In this document: positions 23,028-41,660 of the stretch, piece by piece
How the letters are laid out: each line of letters starts with the position of its first letter
Numbering within the stretch: position 1 is the first letter of the stretch
From: Sorangium cellulosum
GTDB taxonomy: Bacteria > Myxococcota_A > Polyangia > Polyangiales > Polyangiaceae
Assembly (NCBI GenBank): GCA_020720045.1
Contig: DYPH01000041.1
Span: 1 to 41,710 of the forward strand
Reading direction: 5' to 3'
DNA length: 41,710 bases
Translations under genes and position numbers: made by a program
The notes under the pieces: model-generated
What the model was told of the DNA's origin: nothing
The model's database searches: none
Seen by the model: only the letters and a program-made list of their open reading frames with translations

Positions 23028-24299
23028 ATGATTCTGCGTGATCCTGTCCACGGACTTGTGAGCTTTGAGTCGGAGGAAGAAGCCGTTCTTCCGCGTTTGA
23101 TGGATACCGCAGAGGTCCAGCGGCTTCGGCGCGTAAAGCAGCTCGGGGTCGCCTGTTCCGCCTTCCCCGGCGGCGAACACACGCGCTTTTCCCACGCGAT
23201 CGGCGCCGCCTACGTCATGAAAAAGCTGCTCGTGCGCCTGCGGGCGATCCACGAGCAGCTCCCGTTTTGGCAGCGCGTCACCTCCCAGAGCGCCCGCGAC
23301 GCGCTTGCCGCCGCGTTCTTGCACGACGTCGGCCACGGCCCCTACTCACACCTCTTTGAGGACTCGCTCCCCGGCGCCCCCCATCACGAGGTCTGGACGG
23401 AGAGGGTCCTCCTCGATCCGTCGACGGAGGTCCACCAGGCGCTCGCCTCCCACGACCCGAAAATGCCGACGCGCGTCGCCGCCCTCGTCCGTGGCGAGCA
23501 CGAGCTCCCCTACCTGGCAAAAGCGGTCAGCGGCATGTTTGACGTCGACCGTTGCGACTACCTCTTGCGCGACGCCCATTTTACCGGCGTCGGCTACGGG
23601 AAGTTCGACCTCGACTGGCTCCTTCGCAGCCTCCGTTTTGGACCGGCAGAGTCGCTCGCCATCGACGGCGCGAAGGGACTTCCTGCGATTGAAGCGTTCC
23701 TTCTTGCGCGCCTTTTCATGTTTCAGCAGGTCTACCTCCATAAGGCGACCCGCGCCGCCGAATGGATGGTGAAGCTTGCCCTCCGGCGGGCCAACAACCT
23801 CCTCGCCGACGGCACCCGCCTCCCGCAGACGCCGCGCGCCATGCAGCTCGCCGCGTTTGGTGCCGAAATTCCGCTCGCCGATTACCTCGTCCTCGACGAC
23901 GCCACCCTCGAAGTGGCGATGCGCGCCTGGGAGGAGGGGCCCGACCCGATCCTCGCCGAGCTCTGCAAGCGGGCACGCGTCCGTTCCCTTTATAAAACCC
24001 TTGAGCTTTTCGGCGAACAGGCGACGCCGCACGGCCGGGAACGCGCCTTCGAGATCGCCCGAGAGATCGCCGCCGCGCGGGGCTTTGATCCGGCATGGTC
24101 GGTCGGTCTGGATGTGGCCGGTGACACGCCGGTCAATACGAAGAAAGAGGAGCTCCTGGTCGTCTTTCAGAAGGGGCCGGTCCGCCCGCTCGCCGATGTG
24201 AGCTTCCTCCTCGGGCGCCTCGCAAACGAGCGCCTCGAGCGGGTCCGCATCTTGATGCGACCCGAACTCCGCGACGAAGTCATTCAGGCGCTCGCCTAG
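23028..24299 (+). CDS. HD-domain phosphohydrolase (SAMHD1/dNTPase-like)
   Basis: A 423-residue protein that begins with the typical IRDPVHG-like start (ILRDPVHGLVSF) and QRLRRVKQLG. The metal-binding residues are in TRFSHAIGA (His56), FLHDVGHGPYSH (His99-Asp100 and following His residues) and FDVDRCDYLLRDA (Asp, about 182-194). The family hydrolyses deoxynucleoside triphosphates to nucleosides and triphosphate, or acts on related nucleotides; some members take part in phage defence, though nothing here points to that. It lies 40 bp after nadA in the same direction and may be co-transcribed. Confidence 0.85.
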   Translation: MILRDPVHGLVSFESEEEAVLPRLMDTAEVQRLRRVKQLGVACSAFPGGEHTRFSHAIGAAYVMKKLLVRLRAIHEQLPFWQRVTSQSARDALAAAFLHDVGHGPYSHLFEDSLPGAPHHEVWTERVLLDPSTEVHQALASHDPKMPTRVAALVRGEHELPYLAKAVSGMFDVDRCDYLLRDAHFTGVGYGKFDLDWLLRSLRFGPAESLAIDGAKGLPAIEAFLLARLFMFQQVYLHKATRAAEWMVKLALRRANNLLADGTRLPQTPRAMQLAAFGAEIPLADYLVLDDATLEVAMRAWEEGPDPILAELCKRARVRSLYKTLELFGEQATPHGRERAFEIAREIAAARGFDPAWSVGLDVAGDTPVNTKKEELLVVFQKGPVRPLADVSFLLGRLANERLERVRILMRPELRDEVIQALA

Positions 24300-29562: not shown

Positions 29563-30138
29563 TTACTGCTTCGCGCCTTGATTCACCATAAGGTGAAACT
29601 TCGCGAATTCGTTCTGCCCGAGGGTGTAGAGCACCTCACAAAGCAGGCGGTACGGGGTGTTCTCGTCGGCGACGATGATCGCCTCACTCGAGTTCGGATC
29701 CTTGCCCGTCGCGGTTCGGATCGCCTTATCGGTCTCACGAAAGCTTGAGAGGGCCGTCCCAAGGCGCGTGATGTAAAGGTCGTTGGCGCCGTTCTTCTTA
29801 TACTGGGCGTCGACGCCGTTGCTGGCATCGGGCGGAACCGGGACAACCTCGTTCTCGCCGACGTTGATCCCCTTCTTCGTGATCAAGACGGGGAGCCCTT
29901 CCTGGGAAGCTTCCGTCGTCAGCACGCTGGCCGGAAGTTTCAGGTCGTTCGACTGGGGGACGTTGTTGGAGGTCGTCATGCTCTTCAGCAAGAAGACGAG
30001 GATGATCGTCATCATGTCGAGCATGGCGGTGATGTTGAGGAAGTTGACCTCGTGCGCCCCCCCCCTTCGCAACGTCTCCTTACGAAGCATGCGTTTGAAG
30101 GTCGCGGTTCCGGCTGGCTTCTGTCCGGCTGTCGTCAT
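29563..30138 (-). CDS. ExbD/TolR-family motor protein (cluster 1, second R)
   Basis: A 191-residue inner-membrane protein with one N-terminal membrane helix carrying the conserved proton-path aspartate (LNITAMLDMMTIILVFLLKS). A periplasmic domain follows, with the strand PVLITKKGINVG and the C-terminal TolR-like part (EAIIVADENTPYRLLCEVLYTLGQ). It is about 50 residues longer than E. coli TolR. ExbD/TolR proteins rotate or move with ExbB/TolQ to couple proton flow to periplasmic work. The start overlaps the stop of the preceding R gene (ATGA). A nine-G run at codons 25-28 is a potential indel site, but the frame is intact. Confidence 0.88.
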   Translation of the reverse strand: MTTAGQKPAGTATFKRMLRKETLRRGGAHEVNFLNITAMLDMMTIILVFLLKSMTTSNNVPQSNDLKLPASVLTTEASQEGLPVLITKKGINVGENEVVPVPPDASNGVDAQYKKNGANDLYITRLGTALSSFRETDKAIRTATGKDPNSSEAIIVADENTPYRLLCEVLYTLGQNEFAKFHLMVNQGAKQ

Positions 30139-30713
30139 TTGACCAACCCAAACTGGACGTCAGGAAACATCTCTTTCTTCTCCTTCGCGTCCGGCGCGGT
30201 TTCCGGATCCGAGCGGAGCGCATCCATCACACCAACGACCGCCTTGTAAGGGATCTCCTTGTTCGCGGAGATCGTGACCGAGGTCTCGTCTTCGAAATCG
30301 GGAGAGGACCCCTTCAAACGTTTGGCGCATTTGGCGAGCGTCTTGAAGTCGTACTCGTTGTTCTTCTTCGGAACCGCGAGCCCTTCGCCGACGCTCTCGC
30401 AACCCGGGGCGACGTTGCCGCCGCGGGCTTTCAGGCTGAACCCGTCAGGAACGACGAGCACCGTCAAACCGAGCGTGTTCTGCTGCTGACTCGCCCCACG
30501 ACCGCCACCACCCGCACGCGGCGGGAAGGTGTCGATCGTCGCGGTGAACGTAACGCTCACCGTGGCAAGAACGAACATCAGAACGTTCATCACGATATCG
30601 AGGAAGGGGACGATGTTGAGCTCGCCCCCCTCTTCGTCCGGTGCCAGTTCCTTCGGTGCGGACAACCGCCGGATTTTGCTCCGCTGCGCTGCGGAAAGCT
30701 TCTCTTCAGCCAT
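30135..30713 (-). CDS. ExbD/TolR-family motor protein (cluster 1, first R)
   Basis: A 192-residue protein with a basic cytoplasmic N-terminus (RSKIRRLSAPKE) and one membrane helix holding the conserved Asp (LNIVPFLDIVMNVLMFVLAT). A Gly-rich hinge (RAGGGGRGAS) leads into an enlarged periplasmic domain (LGLTVLVVPDGFSLKARGG, TSVTISANKEIPYKAVVGVMDAL). It has two cysteines (CESV, AKCAKR) that could form a disulfide. It lies 29 bp after the TolQ-type gene and overlaps the second R gene by 4 bp, so the order is Q-R-R. Confidence 0.88.
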   Translation of the reverse strand: MAEEKLSAAQRSKIRRLSAPKELAPDEEGGELNIVPFLDIVMNVLMFVLATVSVTFTATIDTFPPRAGGGGRGASQQQNTLGLTVLVVPDGFSLKARGGNVAPGCESVGEGLAVPKKNNEYDFKTLAKCAKRLKGSSPDFEDETSVTISANKEIPYKAVVGVMDALRSDPETAPDAKEKKEMFPDVQFGLVK

Positions 30714-30742
30714 GTGTGTTCTCCCCGCTTAAGGAACGGGGA

Positions 30743-31426
30743 TCAGCCGTTTCCGCGGGAGCCGAGGGTCAAGAGATTGAACACGCGCTCCTGGGTCGTA
30801 TCGAGGTCGTGCTGGATGTTCTTGACGCGGGCATGAAGCAGCAAGTGCGCAATCATGCACGTCACGGCGATGAAGAGACCGAGCGCCGTGTTGTACATCG
30901 CTTCCGCGATACCGTTCGCGAGAACGCGTTGCTTCTCGGCGGCCGAGAGGCCCGGCGCGGCGACGGCGCCGAAGGTGTGGATGAGGCCGTACACGGTGCC
31001 GAGGAGACCGATAAGGGTTGCGATGTTCGCGAGCGACCAGAGCGCGCCGATGCGCTGCTCGACGGCGGGCTTGATTTCGCCCATCTTTTCGCTCATCGCG
31101 GCATCGATCTCGTCCGGCCCCTTCGAGGCGTTCGTGAGACCAGCCTTCACAAGCTGCAACGTCGGGTAATCGCCCGCGTCACAAAGCTTCACAGCGCGAT
31201 CGAGGTTCCCCGCGACCACGAGCTTCTTCACCGAGGCGAAGAATTCCTTGGAATTGACCTTGTACTTCGAGACCTGGAAGAGGAAGCGCTCCGCGATTAC
31301 TGCTACGCAGATCGCTAGGGTACCAAGATTGATGGAGAGGAAAAGCGGATTCTCTTTGAAGGCTTCGAGGATGCCGCTGCTCGCGCTTCCCCCGCCCGCT
31401 TCTCCACTCAACAAGAAAACGAACAT
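30743..31426 (-). CDS. MotA/TolQ/ExbB-family motor protein (cluster 1)
   Basis: A 227-residue stator-type protein. ATG 31426 (MFVFLLSGEAGGG) has AGGAG eight bases upstream; the longer upstream frame is not supported. Three membrane segments: LFLSINLGTLAICVAVIAE, IATLIGLLGTVYGLIHTFGA and GLFIAVTCMIAHLLLHARV. The ExbB/TolQ signature GTVYGLI and the channel threonines (LIGLLGT, EAMYNTALG) are present. With the two R-type proteins it should form a proton-driven inner-membrane motor complex. AglR in the Myxococcus gliding machine and TolQ are the nearest functional analogues; which of these it serves cannot be decided from sequence alone. Confidence 0.9.
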   Translation of the reverse strand: MFVFLLSGEAGGGSASSGILEAFKENPLFLSINLGTLAICVAVIAERFLFQVSKYKVNSKEFFASVKKLVVAGNLDRAVKLCDAGDYPTLQLVKAGLTNASKGPDEIDAAMSEKMGEIKPAVEQRIGALWSLANIATLIGLLGTVYGLIHTFGAVAAPGLSAAEKQRVLANGIAEAMYNTALGLFIAVTCMIAHLLLHARVKNIQHDLDTTQERVFNLLTLGSRGNG

Positions 31427-31569
31427 CCCGGATGCTCCTTTCTGGAACTTTCTACACGCTGTCTGGTGCGGCGACCCGAGACGCCGGTCTCGGATCGTGC
31501 GGCGCCGCCGCCCCCGTTGAGGAATCGGTCTCCGCAGCGCCGCGGGGAGGCCGCGACGTAAGTCAGGGC

Positions 31570-31599
31570 ACGATACCTGCGTCCTTTTCGGCAAGTCAA
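31570..31599 (-). promoter_or_regulatory. Putative sigma70 promoter of motor cluster 1
   Basis: On the minus strand, -35 TTGACT (31599-31594), an 18-bp spacer and -10 TATCGT (31575-31570). This gives a leader of about 135 bases before the TolQ-type start. Confidence 0.5.
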
Positions 31600-32061
31600 C
31601 CAGCGTGATGGATTGTTGCGGGATCGGTCAGCGTCGCCAAGCATTCGCAACGAATGCGAGCAGAGAATTTGCCGGCGTGGGGTGGCGTCGGCCGAAGCTG
31701 AGCGGGCTCCCGCACAAAAAGCGCCCATTCCGTGCGTGATACACATAACTTGGCAGCTCGGGGAAATCACCCACGTCGACCAAAGGGCTTGACCGCGGCC
31801 GTGTCTCCTGCGAACCCTGCGCGCCGATCGCTCCTCTGGCAGCGATTGCCGCTTCATGGACGCCCTTCGGCGCCAGGGGCATCTTAATTCCGCCCGATTC
31901 TTCTGCCTGCCTCGCTACGACCGTCGCCTCCGGTGCCGCCGTCGCGAAACCAGGAAAACGTCTCCGAAACGTCCCGTTCCAGGGCGCCGAACGAGGCTCT
32001 TCTTGGCGTTTGGGACCCCGCGTCCGCGATCGCCGTGCTCTTTTCCGCGCGATAGTCGTTC

Positions 32062-32077
32062 GAGGTGCTTGCACCTC
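32062..32077. promoter_or_regulatory. 16-bp perfect palindrome (possible operator)
   Basis: GAGGTGCTTGCACCTC is a perfect inverted repeat with 7-bp arms around TT. A possible -35 (TTGCAC, 32069) and -10 (GATAAC, 32091) with 16-bp spacing overlap it, so a repressor site or a hairpin at the promoter is possible. Confidence 0.5.
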
Positions 32078-32121
32078 CCTCTCGCGTTCGGATAACGTGC
32101 CGCCACCTCACGGTCGGAAAA

Positions 32122-32136
32122 GTTGCATAATGCAAC
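32122..32136. promoter_or_regulatory. 15-bp perfect palindrome containing a -10-like box
   Basis: GTTGCATAATGCAAC has 7-bp arms around one central A. It includes CATAAT, one base from the -10 consensus. It lies about 100 bp upstream of the plus-strand TolQ-type gene and looks like an operator. Confidence 0.5.
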
Positions 32137-32232
32137 GAATCGGACCGGAGGCCACGCGTCGACGGGGCCCTACCTGCCCTAGACCCCAATTACGTTCGGC
32201 CCGGGGCCGGATGCCGTCAGGAGTAGTTCGCA

Positions 32233-32874
32233 ATGTGGAAGCATTTCCAAGAAGGTGGATGGGGGATGTGGCTCATCCTCTTCTGGTCCATCATCACGAT
32301 CGGCGTGATCATCGAGCGCGCGCTCACCCTCTTTAGCTCGTCGATCAACAAAGACGTGTTCCTTGCCACGATGCAAAAGTGCATCCTCGCGGGCGACGTC
32401 CAGCGTGCCGTCAAGATGTGCTCCGCCGCGAATGCGCCGCTTGCGCGTATCGTTCAGGCAGGTCTCGTCAAGGTGAACCGCCCTGATGAAGAAGTTCAGG
32501 CGGCGATGGACGAAGCGGCTCTCCGCGAAATCCCGAAGCTCACCGCACGTACCCCGTTCCTCGCGCTCCTCGCGAACCTCGCGATGCTCTCCGGTCTCCT
32601 CGGAACCGTGACGGGTCTCATCTCGTCCTTCGCCGCCGTCTCTGGCGACGGCATCGACCCCTCCCAGAAGGCGAAGCTCCTCGCCGGCGGTATCGCGGAA
32701 GCGATGAACTGCACGGCATTCGGGCTCATCGTCGCCATTCTCGCGCTCGTCGGGTTCGCGCTCCTCAACAGCAAGACCCAAGGGCTCGAGGACGACATCA
32801 ACGAGTCGAGCGTTCAGGTGCTCAACCTCGTCGTTACGAATCGTCAGAAGGTCAATCTCCCTGCCGAAGGCTAA
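32233..32874 (+). CDS. MotA/TolQ/ExbB-family motor protein (cluster 2)
   Basis: A 213-residue stator-type protein with ATG 32233 and AGGAG nine bases upstream. Membrane segments are WGMWLILFWSIITIGVIIE, LLANLAMLSGLLGTVTGLIS and TAFGLIVAILALVGFALL. The family signature GLLGTVTGLI and the conserved EAMNCTAFG are present. The N-terminus (MWKHFQEGGWGMWLILF) matches the TolQ-type group common in deltaproteobacterial lineages. It is divergent from cluster 1 and clearly different in sequence, so the two are not a recent duplication. With two downstream R-type genes it forms a second complete Q-R-R set. Confidence 0.9.
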   Translation: MWKHFQEGGWGMWLILFWSIITIGVIIERALTLFSSSINKDVFLATMQKCILAGDVQRAVKMCSAANAPLARIVQAGLVKVNRPDEEVQAAMDEAALREIPKLTARTPFLALLANLAMLSGLLGTVTGLISSFAAVSGDGIDPSQKAKLLAGGIAEAMNCTAFGLIVAILALVGFALLNSKTQGLEDDINESSVQVLNLVVTNRQKVNLPAEG

Positions 32875-32990
32875 GAGACGACCGTGTGTGGCAGGTAGTG
32901 TGACGGGCGGGGCCGCTCGAACGGAGCGGTCCTCGTCCCTGTCCCCCAAATTTTCCGACCTTCATTGCGTCGGTTCGTGAGGAGACGACC

Positions 32991-33569
32991 ATGGGTGGCG
33001 TAAGCGTCGAAGGCGGCGGCGGTGGCAAAAAGTCGGTGAATTCGGAGGTCAATATGGTCCCGATGATCGACCTCTTGATGTGCACCATCTCCTTTCTCCT
33101 CATTACCGCGGTGTGGTCCCAGATGGCCCGCATCAATGCGGACGCGCAGGTCCCTGGGCCGCCGAGAACCGATCAGCAAATCGACAAGGTCGAACCGGAG
33201 CCTCAGCTCCATGTGACCCTAGGCCCGACCCAAGAAGGGGGCAAGAAGCGCAGCTTCAGCCTCGTTTGGAAAGCGGGCGGCTCTCAGATCAAGGAAGAAA
33301 AGATCGAGGTCCAAGCGGTCGAAGAGAAGGGCACTGTGAAGTACCCGGAACTTTCCGCAAAGATCGAGAGCCAGTGGAACGAGACCGGCAAGCACCGGGA
33401 GGCCAGCGACAAGAAGTTCGACCAGGCCGTTCTCCACTCCGACAACACCACGCCCTACAGCGAACTCATTGGTGTTATCGACGCAATCTATGCTCCGCAG
33501 CGGCAGTACAAGGTCGGCGAGAAGACCGAAAAAGCCTCTGCGTTCAACGTAACTTTCGCGATGCAGTGA
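32991..33569 (+). CDS. ExbD/TolR-family motor protein (cluster 2, first R)
   Basis: A 192-residue protein. A Gly-rich N-terminus (MGGVSVEGGGGGKKS) is followed by a membrane helix with the conserved Asp (VNMVPMIDLLMCTISFLLIT). The periplasmic domain is large and charged (KKRSFSLVWKAGGSQIKEEK) and ends in the usual TolR-like part (VLHSDNTTPYSELIGVIDAIY). It stands 116 bp after the Q gene and 10 bp before the second R gene. Confidence 0.87.
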   Translation: MGGVSVEGGGGGKKSVNSEVNMVPMIDLLMCTISFLLITAVWSQMARINADAQVPGPPRTDQQIDKVEPEPQLHVTLGPTQEGGKKRSFSLVWKAGGSQIKEEKIEVQAVEEKGTVKYPELSAKIESQWNETGKHREASDKKFDQAVLHSDNTTPYSELIGVIDAIYAPQRQYKVGEKTEKASAFNVTFAMQ

Positions 33570-33579
33570 GGATTTCGTC

Positions 33580-34146
33580 ATGACGATCCATGAGCCGGGC
33601 AAACGGCTGATGCACGCTATCCCCCTTAAGTTCGTTCAGAAAAAAGTGAGCGGACATGGTGGGCGGAGCGTTGCTGCCGAACTTTCGTTGACGAGCATGA
33701 TCGACTTCCTCGTGACGATCGTCGTGTTCCTTCTGATGACGTTCAGTGCGAGCGGCGAAACTTCGCTCCCGAACGGCATCACGCTCCCTTCCGCCGAGCA
33801 CACGATCGACCTCCTCGATGCACCGATGGTGGCGATCACTGCCGACCAAATCCTGGTCAACGGCCAGCCGATGGGCAACACGCGCAGTGTCGTCGAAGCG
33901 AACAAGGTTCAGAAGATCGAAGAGCTCTTCAATTCTCTGAAGGGTCAGCGAGACGTCTATAAGCAGCTCAACCCGAACAAGGACTTCCCGGGAGTCGTCA
34001 TCCTCACGATGGACGCAAAGGTTCCGGCAGTCGTGGTGAAGAGCGTCTTCCAGACGGCGGCGTTTGCCGGCTTCCCGAACGTCTCGTTCATGGTCAACAA
34101 GACCGGCGGCAAGAAGCCGGCCGGTGGCGGTGGCGGCGGCGAGTGA
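33580..34146 (+). CDS. ExbD/TolR-family motor protein (cluster 2, second R)
   Basis: A 188-residue protein with the conserved Asp in its membrane helix (LSLTSMIDFLVTIVVFLLMT). The periplasmic domain has the TolR-like pattern (PMVAITADQILVNGQPMG, GVVILTMDAKVPAVVVKSVF) and ends in a Gly tail (PAGGGGGGE). It is the last gene of the Q-R-R set and is followed by a terminator-like hairpin before the one-TM protein gene. Confidence 0.87.
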   Translation: MTIHEPGKRLMHAIPLKFVQKKVSGHGGRSVAAELSLTSMIDFLVTIVVFLLMTFSASGETSLPNGITLPSAEHTIDLLDAPMVAITADQILVNGQPMGNTRSVVEANKVQKIEELFNSLKGQRDVYKQLNPNKDFPGVVILTMDAKVPAVVVKSVFQTAAFAGFPNVSFMVNKTGGKKPAGGGGGGE

Positions 34147-34208: not shown

Positions 34209-34345
34209 TGACCCAAGAATGCCCAGTTCTCCGAAACTATTCAGAAATTGGGAACATATTTCTGTTCGTGTAGTCCTCGGGTGCGTTCCCGTCCGTGTCG
34301 TCGTCTTGGCCGGGAGTTCCGGCCCCCCTCAAGAGAACACCGTCC

Positions 34346-35413
34346 ATGGCGAAGAAACCTGACCCGACCGAGCGCGTGCGCGGCCTCGCTGCCGTTCAAG
34401 AGATCCGGGAGAACCGGAAGCGCGGCAAGTATGGGCGCCCGACGTTTAAGCACGCCCTCGTCGCCTTCTCCCTCGTTGGCGTCCTCCTAGGCGTCTACTA
34501 CTTCCGTTGGAACCGAGGGGTTCAGACCGGTCGTGCCAAGCTGCTGTCGGCCCAGGCCGACACCGTCGCGACGCTTGGCAAGGATTGGTTTCCGCTCCGC
34601 GACCAAATGGAGGCGGTCGTTAAGGGCGCCCGCAACGACTTCTCCGGGGACGATGTGCAGCCTGCGGCGCGCACCTTGGCGTTCCGGAGCGAGCCGGGCC
34701 TCTACCTGCGCCTCCGCCTCGCCGAAACCGGCGATATCGGCGCAGCGGCCGAACATTCGGTGAAGGACGGCTTTACCAGCTGTCTCGTGCGAGGAACGAG
34801 CGCCCCGGCGGTCAACCCACCTCCGTCCGGGACGCCGATGATCGTTGGCGGCGACCAACCGTGGAACGTCCGCCAGGCCTATCGTTCGACCCGGGTCCTC
34901 ACCGACACCTGGCGAAAGCTCGTCGAAGGGGTCGACGATGATTTGCGCCTGAAGGTCTTCGAGGAGCAGTACGAACAAGCCCAGAAGACCGAGATTCCGT
35001 TTGCACTTAACGTCGTCAAACAGGCCAAATATTTCCTCTTAGTCCTCGATGAAGACGTGCCCGAAGCACGCATTGTGGAGCCGACGGCTGTCGGCGACGC
35101 TGGCGCAATCAAGCCGCGGACCACCTTAAATGTCGATGATTTGGCGCTCGTACCCCATCCCGTCCGGATCTATCTCTACGATTTTTCGCAGAAGAAGATG
35201 ATCGCCCAAGTTCGGCGAACCTCCATTGGGCATGTGTCGCTCGGCCCGGAAGTTCTTTCGACGAATCCCGAGGTTGCAAATGCGCTTCACCGCCAGGTGA
35301 ACAACTGCCAATTGGCCCACGATTTCGTCGAAGCGGTTTCTCCCGACGACCCCGCGACCGCCGCGCCGTCGCCCCCCGCTTCCGCCCTCGGGAAGGGGCC
35401 TGCCCCGCGCTGA
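34346..35413 (+). CDS. One-TM protein next to motor cluster 2, unknown function
   Basis: A 355-residue protein with ATG 34346 ([19 protein letters not shown]). It has a basic cytoplasmic N-terminus, a single membrane helix (about 36-53, [18 protein letters not shown]) and a large extracytoplasmic domain of about 300 residues with segments [32 protein letters not shown] and [19 protein letters not shown]. It ends in a Pro/Ala-rich tail. No family is recognised. Its position between a Q-R-R motor operon and the elongasome genes suggests an envelope role, perhaps as a periplasmic partner of the motor. Confidence 0.72.
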
Positions 35414-35837: not shown

Positions 35838-37022
<1,185 letters not shown>

Positions 37023-37044: not shown

Positions 37045-37920
37045 GTGGCCTGGAAGCGCTATCGAGACGTGACCCTCGTGGTCTTGCTGTTGACTGTTCC
37101 GTTTTTCTTTCTCCGCGCGAACGTCAAGCGCCCCGAGAATCTGAACGGTATGGATCGTGCGCTTTTGCAGGTCAGCGCCCCCATTGAATTCGTCGTGGCG
37201 AGCGGCGCGCGCGGGATTTCCAACTTCTTCTCCGACTACATCTATCTCGTCGATGTAAAAGAAGAAAACGAACGCCTTTCCTACGAGAATGCGCGCCTCC
37301 GTGAGCAGGTTCACAAGCTTGAACGCGCAGAAGCGGAGAACCGTGAATTGCGAAAGCTCCTCCAGCTCAAAGAGGGGACTCCTGGCGATACCGTATCGGC
37401 GCAGGTCGTCGGAACCGATATCACGGAGTTTTTTCGCGTCACTCGCGTTGTTCTCGACCGCGGCTCCCGAAACGTACGCCCACACATGCCGGTGATCACA
37501 TCGGCCGGTGTCGTCGGGACCGTCCAATGGGTTTCTGGAGATAGCATTTCTGTGCAGCTCTCCGTCGACGCGGCTTTCGGCATTGACGTTGAAGATGAAG
37601 TTACGCGGGCTCGTGCCTTTGTACGCGGCACCGGAGACCCGACGAAATACACCTGCAAAGTCGAGATGGTCGATTCGCGCGATAGCGTTGAAGTCGGCGA
37701 TTTACTGGTTACTTCTGGTAAGGGGAAGTGGTTCCCGCGTGGCATTCCCGTCGCCCGCGTAACGAAGGTGAACAAGCAGGAGATCGGTCGCGATCAAGAG
37801 GTTGAAGCGGAGCCGACCGTCGACTTTTCCCGCCTCGACTCGGTGCTTATCCTGACAACGCCCCCCGGCGAGCTTGACGATACGAAGGGGGCTGCAAAGC
37901 CGGGAGCCCCGAAGCCTTGA
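37045..37920 (+). CDS. mreC: Rod shape-determining protein MreC
   Basis: A 291-residue bitopic membrane protein of the elongasome. GTG start at 37045. It has one N-terminal membrane helix (VTLVVLLLTVPFFFLRA), a coiled coil (about 71-110, VKEENERLSYENARLREQ) and the beta-rich periplasmic domain (VVGTDITEFFRVTRVVLDRG, PVITSAGVVGTVQWVSGDS, EVGDLLVTSGKGKWFPRGIP). It scaffolds MreD, PBP2 and RodA. The Ala/Pro-rich tail overlaps the mreD start by 4 bp (TTGA). Confidence 0.95.
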   Translation: MAWKRYRDVTLVVLLLTVPFFFLRANVKRPENLNGMDRALLQVSAPIEFVVASGARGISNFFSDYIYLVDVKEENERLSYENARLREQVHKLERAEAENRELRKLLQLKEGTPGDTVSAQVVGTDITEFFRVTRVVLDRGSRNVRPHMPVITSAGVVGTVQWVSGDSISVQLSVDAAFGIDVEDEVTRARAFVRGTGDPTKYTCKVEMVDSRDSVEVGDLLVTSGKGKWFPRGIPVARVTKVNKQEIGRDQEVEAEPTVDFSRLDSVLILTTPPGELDDTKGAAKPGAPKP

Positions 37921-38528
37921 GAAACACAGCGTTTTTCATCGCGGGACTTCTTCTCGTTCTCGCTCAAGAGCACTTTTTCCGACTCCTCCGCCTGCTCGGT
38001 AAGCTCTTGGCGGTCGCGCACATTCCCCACGGATTCCTCATGATTCCGGGGATTACGCCGGCGCTCACGCTGCCGCTCATTCTCTTTATGGGCGTCCAGG
38101 AGTTTCCGCTCCTTCGCGGCGCCTCGGTCGCGTTCGTGCTCGGCTACGCGACCGACCTCGTCGGCATGGCGCCAGTTGGCCTCTACAGTTTCACCTATGT
38201 GGCGCTGTTCATCACCGCCCGCGGGGCCGGAATTCGGCTCGCCGCCCAAGCGCGTTGGATGCAGGTCCTGCTCACCTTCGCCTTCACGTTGGTGAAGAGC
38301 GCGATGCTTCTTGGTCTTCTCGCGATCTTTGGCCGGGATACGTGGGTGCCTCGTGCGCTCTGGAAGATTTCGTTTCCCCACGCGATTTCGACAGCCCTCT
38401 TTGCGCCTTTCGTCTTCCATTTGGGCGTGCGTTTGCTCGCCTGGACCGCCGCGACCAGCAAGGCCGACCGGGGCCTCACCGTCGCCGCCGGTACCCGTGG
38501 CGAACGCGTGACGACGGAGCCGCGCTGA
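37917..38528 (+). CDS. mreD: Rod shape-determining protein MreD
   Basis: A 203-residue inner-membrane protein with a TTG start overlapping mreC. It has five or six membrane segments (AFFIAGLLLVLAQEHFFRLL, TLPLILFMGVQEFPLLRG, AFVLGYATDLVGMAPVGLYS, MQVLLTFAFTLVKSAMLLG). The GYATDLV..APVGLYSF segment matches the family's conserved core. It recruits PBP2 and RodA to MreB/MreC. The stop and the PBP2 start share one base. Confidence 0.88.
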   Translation: MRNTAFFIAGLLLVLAQEHFFRLLRLLGKLLAVAHIPHGFLMIPGITPALTLPLILFMGVQEFPLLRGASVAFVLGYATDLVGMAPVGLYSFTYVALFITARGAGIRLAAQARWMQVLLTFAFTLVKSAMLLGLLAIFGRDTWVPRALWKISFPHAISTALFAPFVFHLGVRLLAWTAATSKADRGLTVAAGTRGERVTTEPR

Positions 38529-40540
38529 TGTTTCTTGCGCCTCGATCGGACATCGGCGAATTTCGTAAGCGTTACAAGTGGATCGCCCTTGGGGCGGTGC
38601 TTGCATTTCTCACGATTCTCGGCCGACTCTTCCAGCTTCAGGTTCTTGAGGGGGCCGACTATCGGCAGATGGCCCACGAGAACATCATTCGTCGGGTGCG
38701 GATCGCGACGACGCGTGGCGTGATTCGCGACGAAAAGGGAAGAATTCTCGCCAGTTCCCGTCCCGCGTACAACGTCTATCTCGTCCCTGGGCGCGTGATG
38801 CCGACCGCCCGCCCGCCGAAGAAGGGGCGGAAAAAGAAGGAAGAGGTCGATACACTTCCGCGGATCGCCGACGCCCTGCGCCTGAATCCGGACGAGCGCA
38901 AGCGCCTCGAAACCAAGATTAGAGACGTCTGCCGAGAGGACGACGACCGCAGCCCCTGTTGGCGTGCGATCCTCGTTCGCGAGGACGTTGCACGTGATAT
39001 TGTTGCGGAAATACGGCAGCACCCGCAAGAAATGCTCGGCGCGGAAGTCGTTCAATCGCCGGTCCGTTTCTACCCGTTTAAGAATCTCGGCGCCCACATG
39101 ATGGGTTACGTTTCCGAGATTGATTTCGAGGCGTTGCAGAAGTTTCGGCCGGAAGGCTACGAGCTCATGACCGCCGAGGAGCGGCAGAAGTACAACCCGC
39201 TCGGGTACGACGCTGGCGACAGCATCGGCGCCACCGGCATCGAGCGCGGTTGGGAGGCGCACCTCCGCGGGCAGCGCGGCTGGGAAAAGCGTGTTGTGGA
39301 CGCGCGCGGCCGCTACCGGGGCGGCCCCGACGCCGACCGCCTCGTCGATGAGCCGCACCGCCAGGATCCGATCGCCGGACGCGACCTTCGATTGACCGTC
39401 GACATCGACCTCGTCGCCGCCATCGAAAAGGCGATGCGCCCCCATTTGTCCGGTGCGGTCGTTGTGGTTGACGTAAAAAGTGGCCGAATTCGGGCACTTT
39501 ACAGCAAGCCCGACTTCGACCCGAACGACCTCTCCGGTACCGGCGGCCGCGAAAGGCGCCGCGAAACGATCCGAAAGCTCGCCTTCGATCCGCTGCATCC
39601 GATGCTCGACAAGACGATGACGGGCGCCTTCCCACCCGGCTCGACCTTCAAAGCTTTTACGGCGATGGCCGCTCTTGAAGGGAAGCTCGTCGACCCGAAA
39701 GACACCATCCACTGCGACGGCGTCCTCTACTACGGCAAGCGCCCCTTCCGCTGCACCCACCACCACGGCCAGGTCAACCTCAAACAGTCGATCGCCGAGA
39801 GCTGCAACATCTACTTTTTCAAGCTCGGCGAGGCCATTGGCGTCGATCGTATTGCACAAATTGGTAATGAATTCGGTCTTGGCCAGAAGACGGGCCTCTC
39901 GATCAATCCCGAATCGCCGGGGAAGATGCCGACGCGCGCCTGGTACACGCTCCGCTATCGGGGGCAGTTCCGCATCGGCTTTACGCTCAACACCGCGATC
40001 GGCCAGGGTGCCGTCCTGGTGACACCGGTTCAGCTTGCGCTCGCGTATGCAGCGATCGGCAACGGCGGGACCGTCTATTCGCCTCAAATTGTTCGCTCTT
40101 TAGAGACGAGCGATGGAACGGTTTACCAAGACTTTTCCCCGCGCGTCCGCCAGAAGGCACACGTTTCGCCAGACACGCTCGCGAAGGTCCAGGCAGGTCT
40201 TCACGCGGTCGTGAACGACGAGCTCGGAACCGCCTACCCGGTGCGCGACCCGTCCCTCGACATTTCCGGGAAAACAGGAACGGTTCAGACAGGTTACGTG
40301 CCAAAGCCCGACGAAGATCCTCGCGTCGGTTGGTACAAGAGCCAAGACCACGCATGGTTCGCGAGCTTCTATCCGTCTTCGGCGCCTGAGGTTGCGGTCG
40401 TCGTCTTTATCGAGCACGGCCGTTCCGGTCCAAAGGCGGCCGCCCCGGTCGCGATTCAGGTCGTTCGGGACTACGTTCGCCTGAAGCACGAGGGGGCGCA
40501 CGCGCCGACCCATCCCGCACGCCCCGAACCGAGGAGATGA
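38528..40540 (+). CDS. mrdA: Penicillin-binding protein 2 (elongation transpeptidase)
   Basis: A 670-residue class B penicillin-binding protein that cross-links peptidoglycan during elongation. It has an N-terminal membrane anchor (WIALGAVLAFLTILGRLFQL) and a pedestal domain (RGVIRDEKGRILASS). The transpeptidase motifs are STFK (372-375), SCN (425-427) and KTG (582-584). A basic insert (RPPKKGRKKKEE, about 96-107) and an extended loop (FDPNDLSGTGGRERRRE) are typical variations. ATG 38528 overlaps mreD; upstream in-frame sequence is not coding. It works as a pair with RodA, encoded one base downstream. Confidence 0.95.
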   Translation: MFLAPRSDIGEFRKRYKWIALGAVLAFLTILGRLFQLQVLEGADYRQMAHENIIRRVRIATTRGVIRDEKGRILASSRPAYNVYLVPGRVMPTARPPKKGRKKKEEVDTLPRIADALRLNPDERKRLETKIRDVCREDDDRSPCWRAILVREDVARDIVAEIRQHPQEMLGAEVVQSPVRFYPFKNLGAHMMGYVSEIDFEALQKFRPEGYELMTAEERQKYNPLGYDAGDSIGATGIERGWEAHLRGQRGWEKRVVDARGRYRGGPDADRLVDEPHRQDPIAGRDLRLTVDIDLVAAIEKAMRPHLSGAVVVVDVKSGRIRALYSKPDFDPNDLSGTGGRERRRETIRKLAFDPLHPMLDKTMTGAFPPGSTFKAFTAMAALEGKLVDPKDTIHCDGVLYYGKRPFRCTHHHGQVNLKQSIAESCNIYFFKLGEAIGVDRIAQIGNEFGLGQKTGLSINPESPGKMPTRAWYTLRYRGQFRIGFTLNTAIGQGAVLVTPVQLALAYAAIGNGGTVYSPQIVRSLETSDGTVYQDFSPRVRQKAHVSPDTLAKVQAGLHAVVNDELGTAYPVRDPSLDISGKTGTVQTGYVPKPDEDPRVGWYKSQDHAWFASFYPSSAPEVAVVVFIEHGRSGPKAAAPVAIQVVRDYVRLKHEGAHAPTHPARPEPRR

Positions 40541-40541
40541 C

Positions 40542-41660
40542 GTGGCGACCACCACCCGAAACCGCCTCGAAATCGACTGGGCCCTCTTTCTCGCCGCCTG
40601 CATGCTCGGAGTCATCGGCGTCGTTAATCTCTATTCGGCGACCAGCGCCGCGCGCGCAGCCCTCGCCGACTTTCACCTCCAACAAATCTATTGGTTTGTC
40701 ATCGGTGGCATCTTCGCGACGGTGGTTGCGGCCATCGATTACCGCCACTACGAACGCCTCGGATACGTGCTCTACGTGGTCGGGATCGTGCTTCTGATTC
40801 TCGTCTTCATCCTCGGACGAGATATTCGAGGAAGTTCGCGTTGGATTTACATAGGTAGCTTCAGCTTTCAGCCCTCTGAATTCATGAAGCTCTTCCTTGT
40901 GATTGCGCTCGCGAAGTACCTTCACGATGACTCGAAAGGGGGCATCGAAGGGCGCACGTTGAAGGACTTGGCGATCCCCGCGGCGATCGCCGGCGTGCCC
41001 GTCGCACTGATTTTCAAGCAGCCTGACTTGGGAACTGCACTCATCAACGGGCTAATTTTCGTCACGATCTGCTTAATGACCCGAATTCGCTGGCAGTCGC
41101 TTGCGAAGCTCGGCACCTTCCTGATCGTCACACTTCCGGTGGTGTGGAACTACATTCTCCACGACTACCAGAAGGAGCGCGTCACGAGCTTCTTGAATCC
41201 AGAAGCCAACATCAAGGGCTCCGGCTGGCACGCCCACCACGCGCGTGTGGCCATTGGAAATGGGAGTTTCTCTGGCCAAGGATTCATGAAGGGGTCCCAA
41301 AATCAGTACCTCTTCATTCCCGATCAGCATTCCGACTTTCCCTTCGCGGTCTACGCGGAGGACTGGGGGTTCGTCGGGTGCCTGGTGCTCGTTTCCGTGT
41401 ATCTTTTCATCGTGCTGTGGGCCGTGCGGATCGCAGCGACGGCCAAGGACCGGTTCGGCGCCGTCCTCGCGATTGGCGTCGGTGCCCTCATCTTCTGGCA
41501 CGCGTTCTTCAATCTCGGAATGGTGACCGGCATCCTCCCCGTCGTTGGCGTGACGCTCCCCCTCTTTTCTGCCGGCGGCTCGAGCGTCTTGACGATATTG
41601 CTCGGAATAGGGCTGCTGATGAACGTCAGCATGCGCCGTGCGACCCTCGACGCGAACTAG
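40542..41660 (+). CDS. rodA: Peptidoglycan glycosyltransferase RodA
   Basis: A 372-residue SEDS-family glycosyltransferase that polymerises lipid II with PBP2. GTG start at 40542, one base after PBP2. About ten membrane segments are present, with the SEDS motifs GSSRWIYIGSFSFQPSEFMK (about 103-122), QPDLGTALI and the C-terminal GVTLPLFSAGGSSVLTILLG. The length equals that of E. coli RodA. However, the stop codon TAG (41658-41660) lies inside the 52-bp sequence shared with the left end, so the true last residues and stop could differ if that junction is an artefact. Confidence 0.92.
   Translation: MATTTRNRLEIDWALFLAACMLGVIGVVNLYSATSAARAALADFHLQQIYWFVIGGIFATVVAAIDYRHYERLGYVLYVVGIVLLILVFILGRDIRGSSRWIYIGSFSFQPSEFMKLFLVIALAKYLHDDSKGGIEGRTLKDLAIPAAIAGVPVALIFKQPDLGTALINGLIFVTICLMTRIRWQSLAKLGTFLIVTLPVVWNYILHDYQKERVTSFLNPEANIKGSGWHAHHARVAIGNGSFSGQGFMKGSQNQYLFIPDQHSDFPFAVYAEDWGFVGCLVLVSVYLFIVLWAVRIAATAKDRFGAVLAIGVGALIFWHAFFNLGMVTGILPVVGVTLPLFSAGGSSVLTILLGIGLLMNVSMRRATLDAN

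Follow-up and report, generated by a model that had tools for sequence, protein, structure and literature searches.

Two operons stand back to back in a contig of Sorangium cellulosum (DYPH01000041.1 of assembly GCA_020720045.1), each encoding one TolQ/ExbB-type protein (Q) and two TolR/ExbD-type proteins (R), and the question is which motors they specify and what each of them drives. The stretch analysed, here called the window, is 41,710 nucleotides long and is the entire contig C31 of this genome (G000; 6.34 Mb, 357 contigs, 100% complete). A first-pass annotation of the sequence had described two divergent Q-R-R operons, and gene coordinates and Pfam agree with it: the left operon occupies 29563-31432 on the minus strand and the right operon 32233-34146 on the plus strand, both Q proteins match PF01618, and all four R proteins match PF02472 (E 1.5e-11 to 1.3e-13). 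There is an overlap of 4 bp between R1a and R1b, and gaps of 29 bp and 10 bp separate Q1 from R1a and R2a from R2b. Judged by sequence, the two operons are predicted to encode complete proton-driven stator-type motors that are ancient paralogues, each built of one Q and two different R subunits. A cell with both would offer a natural example of paralogous proton motors that each have to find a partner of their own.

An AglRQS orthologue and a counterpart of M2

In a tree of 59 Q sequences, all 49 Q of both kinds were split from ten Q of the Tol/Exb side with support of 100/100. Window Q1 grouped with Q of the Myxococcus M2 motor (100/98) inside a 23-row branch, type 1 (99/94), and Q2 fell into a 24-row branch with AglR (88/89). 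Both R positions repeated this pattern in a tree of 60 R sequences (split from Tol/Exb 99/94), R1a joining M2a (99/91) and R1b joining M2b (97/92) for the left motor, R2a joining AglQ (98/96) and R2b joining AglS (83/86) for the right one. Approximately unbiased (AU) tests rejected the grouping of M2 with Q2 (p-AU 1.5e-4) and that of AglR with Q1 (p-AU 5e-8); the latter result removes the view that the left operon, and so both operons, are AglRQS. Two points weigh against so neat a division: the branches of R2b with AglS and of the 24 Q rows lie below the 95/80 mark, and a branch of all type-2 rows, including L102 and L108, was supported only at 73/7. On this comparison the right operon is firmly placed as the AglRQS orthologue and the left as the match of M2 (MXAN_3003-3005). 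The likeness to AglRQS that the first-pass annotation had drawn for both operons thus stands for the right operon and falls for the left. The trees fit duplication of one ancestral Q-Ra-Rb operon, which gave rise to the left type (type 1) and the right type (type 2).

Myxococcus sp. CA023 supplied the Myxococcus references. Its MglA shows 100% identity to the deposited MglA sequence, and all eight of its Q loci were fetched; they were assigned to AglRQS and M2 without sight of locus tags. Locus L240 encodes type-2 proteins of 245, 162 and 194 aa, the 162-aa one with Asp at position 28. We recognised this locus as AglRQS because these are the lengths given for AglR, AglQ and AglS in Table 1 of PMC3169522 and because Asp28 is the residue altered in the aglQ D28N mutant named in PMC3858216. 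Locus L241 (245, 173 and 193 aa, type 1) was taken as M2, since it alone among the other seven Q loci scored high with hidden Markov models built from the order's orthologues. Applied to 20 selected phylum loci, these models distinguished two kinds, with Q, first R and second R in agreement, except that the Q of L110 and L114 scored slightly higher with the Q2 model and yet were type 1 in the tree. An early reading, in which the left type was AglRQS because it is linked to glt genes elsewhere, was reversed by the Myxococcus comparison. Two further CA023 loci (L244:7589-9169 and L247:8612-10334) are Q-R-R sets whose Q group with Tol/Exb rows. The Q-R-R make-up by itself is therefore no mark of an Agl motor, which weakens it as the argument for Agl kinship that the first-pass annotation had made of it.

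The right operon resembles AglR-AglQ-AglS of M. xanthus (M1, MXAN_6862-6860), as described in PMC3169522 and PMC3858216, in gene order, make-up, channel residues and tree position, and glt and mglA genes are present in G000 as well. It differs from AglRQS in standing head to head with an M2-type operon, in being followed by a further gene, G34k (unseen in CA023), in its proximity to mreB in more than half of those family genomes where both genes could be placed, and in the length of R2a, which has 192 aa against 162 in AglQ. The left operon resembles M. xanthus M2 in its Q branch and in matching R positions, and neither lies inside a glt cluster; unlike M2, which has its own locus in CA023, it is paired with AglRQS in Polyangiales.

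Could the two sets be ordinary energisers of Tol-Pal or ExbBD-TonB? They share Pfam families with these systems, and their best NCBIfam names are tolQ (Q1, Q2) and tolR (three of the four R; R2b none), all far under the cut-offs. Both trees reject the assignment: the window proteins branch neither with TolQ/TolR nor with ExbB/ExbD. Moreover, no TolA-, TolB-, Pal- or TonB-like gene was seen beside the window motors, and the genome has its own sets elsewhere. Of the four Q-type and six R-type genes over Pfam cut-offs in G000, those outside the window form one Q-R set on C109, followed by TolA-like and TolB-like genes (named by eye from order and size), and one on C92, followed by a TonB-like gene (also named by eye). 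We regard this explanation as refuted on phylogeny and very improbable. Placement of both sets with Tol- or TonB-linked systems and no MreB link, the outcome that the first-pass annotation had set against its own reading, is not what the trees gave; two of the references it had proposed, AglX and AglV, are described in PMC3169522 as TolQ and TolR of the Tol-Pal system.

The residues expected of a proton channel are present in both motors, as had been claimed. A simple hydropathy scan marked three membrane segments in each Q, with channel Thr at 146 and 182 (Q1) and 125 and 161 (Q2), and placed the membrane Asp at D39 (R1a), D41 (R1b), D27 (R2a) and D42 (R2b); in R2b it marked a weaker additional segment at 139-157. 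With the window counted, each subunit was compared across 31-34 sequences, and these Asp and Thr columns are kept in 93% or more of them; R2a Asp27 matches AglQ Asp28. R1a also has two cysteines, Cys105 and Cys129, that recur in 93% or more of the 32 sequences compared and perhaps form a periplasmic disulphide. The R proteins (188-192 aa) are enlarged against TolR (142 aa) and ExbD (141 aa) of Escherichia coli, judged from gene lengths, as noted earlier; with AglS at 194 aa and AglQ at 162 aa, however, this is the size of Agl proteins. Q1 and Q2 are 35% identical, R1a and R2a 27%, and R1b and R2b 25%, which argues, as had been proposed, against a recent duplication. To the Myxococcus AglR candidate, Q2 is 49% and Q1 34% identical; over 15 sequences, mean column identity is 73% for Q2 vs 62% for Q1. 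A sequence search of the PDB with Q1 returned TolQ/ExbB and designed or repeat proteins only.

Conservation of the pair and its neighbourhood

The core sample comprised 39 genomes of the order, 25 from the window's family and 14 from other families; we take the family to be Polyangiaceae and the order Polyangiales, So ce26 Q1 being 99.6% identical to Q1 of G019. A Q2 orthologue (at least 61% identity; partial in G022) was found in 37 of the 39, including G000, and none in G002 and G009, among the matches listed, the weakest of which, at 45 bits, scored lower than the Q1 matches. Of these 37 genomes, G018, G022 and G031 were left out when 33 order loci were fetched, and the window stands for G000. 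In 31 of the 33, Q1 and Q2 are adjacent and divergent and the R genes stand in order (in L060, R1b is beyond the contig end). The two exceptions are L049 (G005), without the left operon, and L059 (G034), whose contig ends 1.2 kb upstream of Q2. Sorangium cellulosum So ce26 (L251) carries all seven genes of the cluster. Searching titles and abstracts, we found no description of the paired arrangement; figures and supplements were outside this scope, and Figure S1 of Luciano may show a Sorangium pair.

The seventh gene, G34k, follows R2b in 28 of the 33 fetched order loci and in Sorangium. It was seen in none of the 20 phylum loci nor after AglRQS in CA023, and it has no Pfam or NCBIfam match. 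The product has one N-terminal membrane segment; an alternative start at 34295 would give 372 aa, in which numbering Cys163 and Cys338 are conserved. A single-sequence fold had a mean predicted local distance difference test (pLDDT) of 40.6 and was not used. Found in the order's loci only, G34k is possibly an extra part of the right motor.

A membrane H+-pyrophosphatase gene, absent from the window, adjoins the left operon or lies one gene away in 14 of the 33 order loci (L032, L035-L041, L043-L046, L048, L050) and in L251 and L127, and stands beside a right-type operon in L254, a record of Anaeromyxobacter. This puts a proton pump close to proton motors; the gene was identified by PF03030 in L127 (602 bits) and by similarity in the other loci. 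Lone Q2-like genes without adjoining R-model matches occur in G036 (L064:8949-9584), G023 (L065:8478-9212) and G026 (L066, near 8813), those of L064 and L065 having both channel threonines by eye. G033 carries an additional diverged Q-R-R set (L313:1483-3377; Q 145 bits with the Q1 model).

The first-pass annotation had linked the motors to MreB, and mreB indeed starts 1.8 kb past R2b. Across the sample the link held in part. MreB was detected in 38 of the 39 genomes; Q2 and MreB could both be placed in 22 of the 25 family genomes, and in 13 of these they lie on one contig within 3-20 kb, among the matches listed (G000, G001, G003, G005, G007, G008, G011, G012, G013, G015, G016, G021, G023). 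The other nine have them on different contigs or 800 kb apart on one contig (G020); in G010, one of the nine, genes resembling rodA and PBP2 share the contig of Q2, and mreB lies on a separate one. In G018, Q2 sits on a 4-kb contig. Telling against a general link, mreB within 20 kb of Q2 was seen in none of the 14 genomes of other families, five of which are undecidable with Q2 contigs below 18 kb (G030, G031, G033, G034, G035); the distance is 68-104 kb in G037, G028 and G025 and 1.4 Mb in G036, and in ten the genes are on different contigs. An mre block adjoins the motor genes in L031, L047 and L049, on differing sides. The linkage is a trait of the family, probably inherited by common descent, and, as gene order shared within one family, is therefore weak evidence of function.

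If the genes from mreB to rodA were real partners, the motors would act in cell-wall growth, moving or energising the elongation machinery. The proximity in 13 family genomes with differing layouts favours this, and so does the title of Fu 2018, by which MotAB-like machinery moves MreB filaments in Myxococcus. The pattern in the other families and in G020 does not, MreB occurs in nearly all genomes regardless, and other neighbours are kept too, such as family F9 (window 23028-24299) in eight loci, so the region is stable as a whole. We consider a role in wall growth improbable.

Table 1. Genes and intergenic stretch of the motor locus, with positions in the window
Feature	Position	Strand	Description	Basis
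R1b	29563-30138	-	second ExbD/TolR-type subunit, left (M2-type) motor	PF02472 E 3.3e-13; M2b counterpart
R1a	30135-30713	-	first ExbD/TolR-type subunit, left motor	PF02472 E 1.5e-11; M2a counterpart
Q1	30743-31432	-	MotA/TolQ/ExbB-type subunit, left motor; alternative start codon possible at 31426	PF01618 E 2.8e-25
Intergenic stretch, divergent operons	31433-32232		800 bp; presumed promoter region	gene coordinates
Q2	32233-32874	+	AglR orthologue	PF01618 E 3.9e-26
R2a	32991-33569	+	AglQ orthologue	PF02472 E 1.3e-12
R2b	33580-34146	+	AglS orthologue	PF02472 E 1.3e-13
G34k	34346-35413	+	seventh gene of cluster, after R2b	no known family
MreB	35988-37022	+	neighbour	NCBIfam TIGR00904, 519 bits
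MreC	37045-37920	+	neighbour	named by gene order only
MreD	37917-38528	+	neighbour	named by gene order only
PBP2	38528-40540	+	neighbour	named by gene order only
RodA	40542-41660	+	neighbour	named by gene order only

Candidate partners of the two motors

Glt and Tol-Pal genes had been recommended for a search elsewhere in the genome, and besides the sets on C109 and C92 described above this yielded two Glt clusters. Contig C36 encodes GltC (590 aa), GltD (1238 aa), GltE (483 aa), a GltF-like protein (86 aa, assigned by position and size only) and GltG (690 aa), followed by a 304-aa protein. A 3796-aa GltI-like protein of C36 is 27% identical (E 0.0) to a 4093-aa protein of the CA023 gltG cluster, and two further genes were called GltA/B-like, one of them matching genes of the CA023 cluster taken for nfs. 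No motor gene was seen in this gliding-type cluster. MglA (82% identical) is encoded in G000. Contig C182 carries a second set, GltC2-D2-E2-F2-X-GltG2, followed by F24, the barrel-like F16 and the exporter-like F33 (polysaccharide export); it has no Q-R-R either. The Glt2 names derive from the counterpart locus L099, where Poly_export passed the Pfam cut-off and the GltG, GltE and GltC matches were below the NCBIfam cut-offs.

Elsewhere in the phylum the two kinds of motor keep different company. A type-1 Q-R-R occupies slot X, between GltE-/GltF-like and GltG-like genes, in eight of the 20 phylum loci (L099, L100, L110, L112-L115, L117) and in Nannocystis (L255). The other 12 loci are type 2; a GltG-like gene adjoins in three of them (L106, L108, L118), and a GltC-D-E set was seen in none within the fetched stretch. 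The left-type motor shares a branch (99/94) with the glt-linked motors, as in the Group B core cluster that PMC3169522 outlines (gltC, D, E and G with aglR, Q and S homologues). Unlike Group B, the motor here lies outside the glt cluster, which has instead a Q-related gene without channel threonines.

Together, the phylum gene order, the channel-less leftover in the slot and a lineage lacking motor and machine alike point to a Glt-type machine beside a polysaccharide exporter as partner of M2. We hold it rather likely that the right motor drives the gliding Glt set of C36 and the left motor the Glt2 set of C182. By what PMC3169522 and PMC3858216 report, AglR of Myxococcus binds GltG and NfsG, so on this model each window motor would need a GltG, and the parsimonious match would be AglRQS with GltG1 and M2 with GltG2. 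Protons would be conducted at the Q-R interface of the right motor, turning or pulling GltG, and the GltC-D-E-F-G and GltI-like machine of C36 would be moved along the cell under guidance of MreB and MglA, as in Myxococcus gliding; binding of GltG by the right operon and gliding with MreB are suggested here by analogy. The left motor would likewise drive GltC2-D2-E2-F2-G2, whose job may be to shift or lay exported polysaccharide at the cell surface. In either motor, by comparison with related stators, which PMC9389320 presents as 5:2 motors, proton passage would make either the R pair or the Q ring rotate. We infer not only the pairing of motors with Glt sets but also proton conduction, coupling to MreB, the polysaccharide role and gliding of this organism. 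The proposed M2-Glt2 pairing gives the second Agl-type motor of myxobacteria a testable partner; among the papers found, MXAN_3003-3005 appear only in PMC3169522 and PMC3858216, with neither function nor partner assigned.

Co-occurrence across the order was weighed in the same genomes. A search for GltC2 at E 1e-20 gave a match in 37 of the 39 (in G030 a fragment only) and none in G005 and G035; among the matches listed, no left Q came from G002, G005, G009 or G034. Left motor and Glt2 thus occur together in 34 genomes and are both missing from one, G005, with Glt2 alone in three and the left motor alone in one. In the genus of G005, which has 12 genomes, G005 (98% complete) and G116 (100%) reached 58 and 61 bits with GltC2, short of a GltC2-grade match, and no left Q was among the matches listed for G116 (L302). 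Both retain gltC-D-E-F-G and Q2-R2a-R2b-G34k. Eight of the other ten congeners have GltC2 (six with 770-833 bits, and G400 and G402 with the gene in pieces), and G399 and G404 (83% and 72% complete) are also without it.

Several observations count against these pairings. The tie between left motor and Glt2 is loose, as four of the 39 genomes misfit: G002 (80% complete), G009 (83%) and G034 (99%, its contig ending 1.2 kb before Q2) have Glt2 without a found left motor, and G035 (90%) has the left motor without Glt2. The shared absence alone is not significant (about 0.2 for at least one by chance, by our own arithmetic), and G005 and G116, being congeneric, may reflect one event; within the genus, the search for a left motor covered these two genomes. 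The window genome's GltG reaches 304 bits vs an equivalog cut-off of 650. In M. xanthus, as far as PMC3858216 recounts it, deletion of MXAN_3004 left spores viable, MXAN_3003 bound neither GltG nor NfsG in a two-hybrid assay, and AglRQS serves two Glt-type machines. One motor can thus serve several partners.

Alternatively, both operons could feed one gliding apparatus, as two stators or as mixed stators, and be kept back to back for that reason. The head-to-head order in nearly all fetched order loci and the complete channel residues of both motors are in keeping with this. The phylum loci are not, for there the kinds are separate, the left type in glt clusters (eight) and the right without gltC-D-E (12); G005 and G116 have the right motor only, together with the gliding Glt set; and CA023 carries both motors at separate loci, the second set of M. 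xanthus being dispensable for motility in the account of PMC3858216. A shared apparatus therefore appears unlikely, and we favour separate partners.

A Q-related gene in the motor slot of Glt2

In G000 the slot that holds the motor in other glt clusters is filled by a solitary gene, Q3 or gene X (L280:10986-11570 on C182, between GltF2 and GltG2). Among 21 order loci (20 fetched and L280), 14 have one slot gene of 102-250 aa, three end before the slot (L284, L286, L289) and four lack a gene there (L287, L294, L298, L299); further calls in the slot are a 138-aa one in L283 and a 79-aa one in L282. All four fetched loci of genus g5 have the slot gene. Besides L280, Q3 loci are L282, L283, L285, L288, L290-L293, L295-L297, L300, L301 and L305-L308. 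No R gene was seen beside Q3 in these loci.

Singly, five of 14 Q3 matched the Q1 model (L283, L295, L296, L297 and L300; 18-41 bits) and the rest did not. A profile of four order-level Q3 rows matched Q1 at 98.8% (E 4e-17), and one of eight family-level rows including the own copy at 51% (E 1.5e-4), falling to 7% when L283 was removed; nine control profiles reached at most 0.6%. Of four Q3 tested with Pfam MotA_ExbB, L296 came nearest (22.2 bits vs the cut-off of 22.9), and the own copy had no match. The own Q3 is 37% identical to the L283 copy (E 1.7e-32), so its homology to Q runs through intermediates. None of the 13 Q3 that were aligned has a threonine at either channel position, the short L293 accounting for one Ser and one gap; the alignment of the weakest rows is unsure. 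Placement of Q3 within type 1 is likewise unsure, as its branches are long; its union with the glt-linked rows is compatible with the data (p-AU 0.24).

These features raise the tentative idea that in Polyangiales the polysaccharide-linked Agl-Glt machine has been split, with the motor supplied in trans from the window's cluster. Q3, the Q gene remaining in the glt cluster, would have shed its R partners and channel threonines while staying under selection, and might now be a non-conducting adaptor through which the M2 motor docks onto GltG2. If this were true, an adaptor that descends from a motor subunit would distinguish the two motors within one cell. In six pairs among four congeners, the ratio of nonsynonymous to synonymous substitutions (dN/dS) of Q3 was 0.23-0.50 (Nei and Gojobori, NG86; dS 0.7-1.6), in keeping with such selection; for a control gene picked by size, three of six pairs were of unlike genes and were dropped, and the like pairs gave 0.19-0.31.

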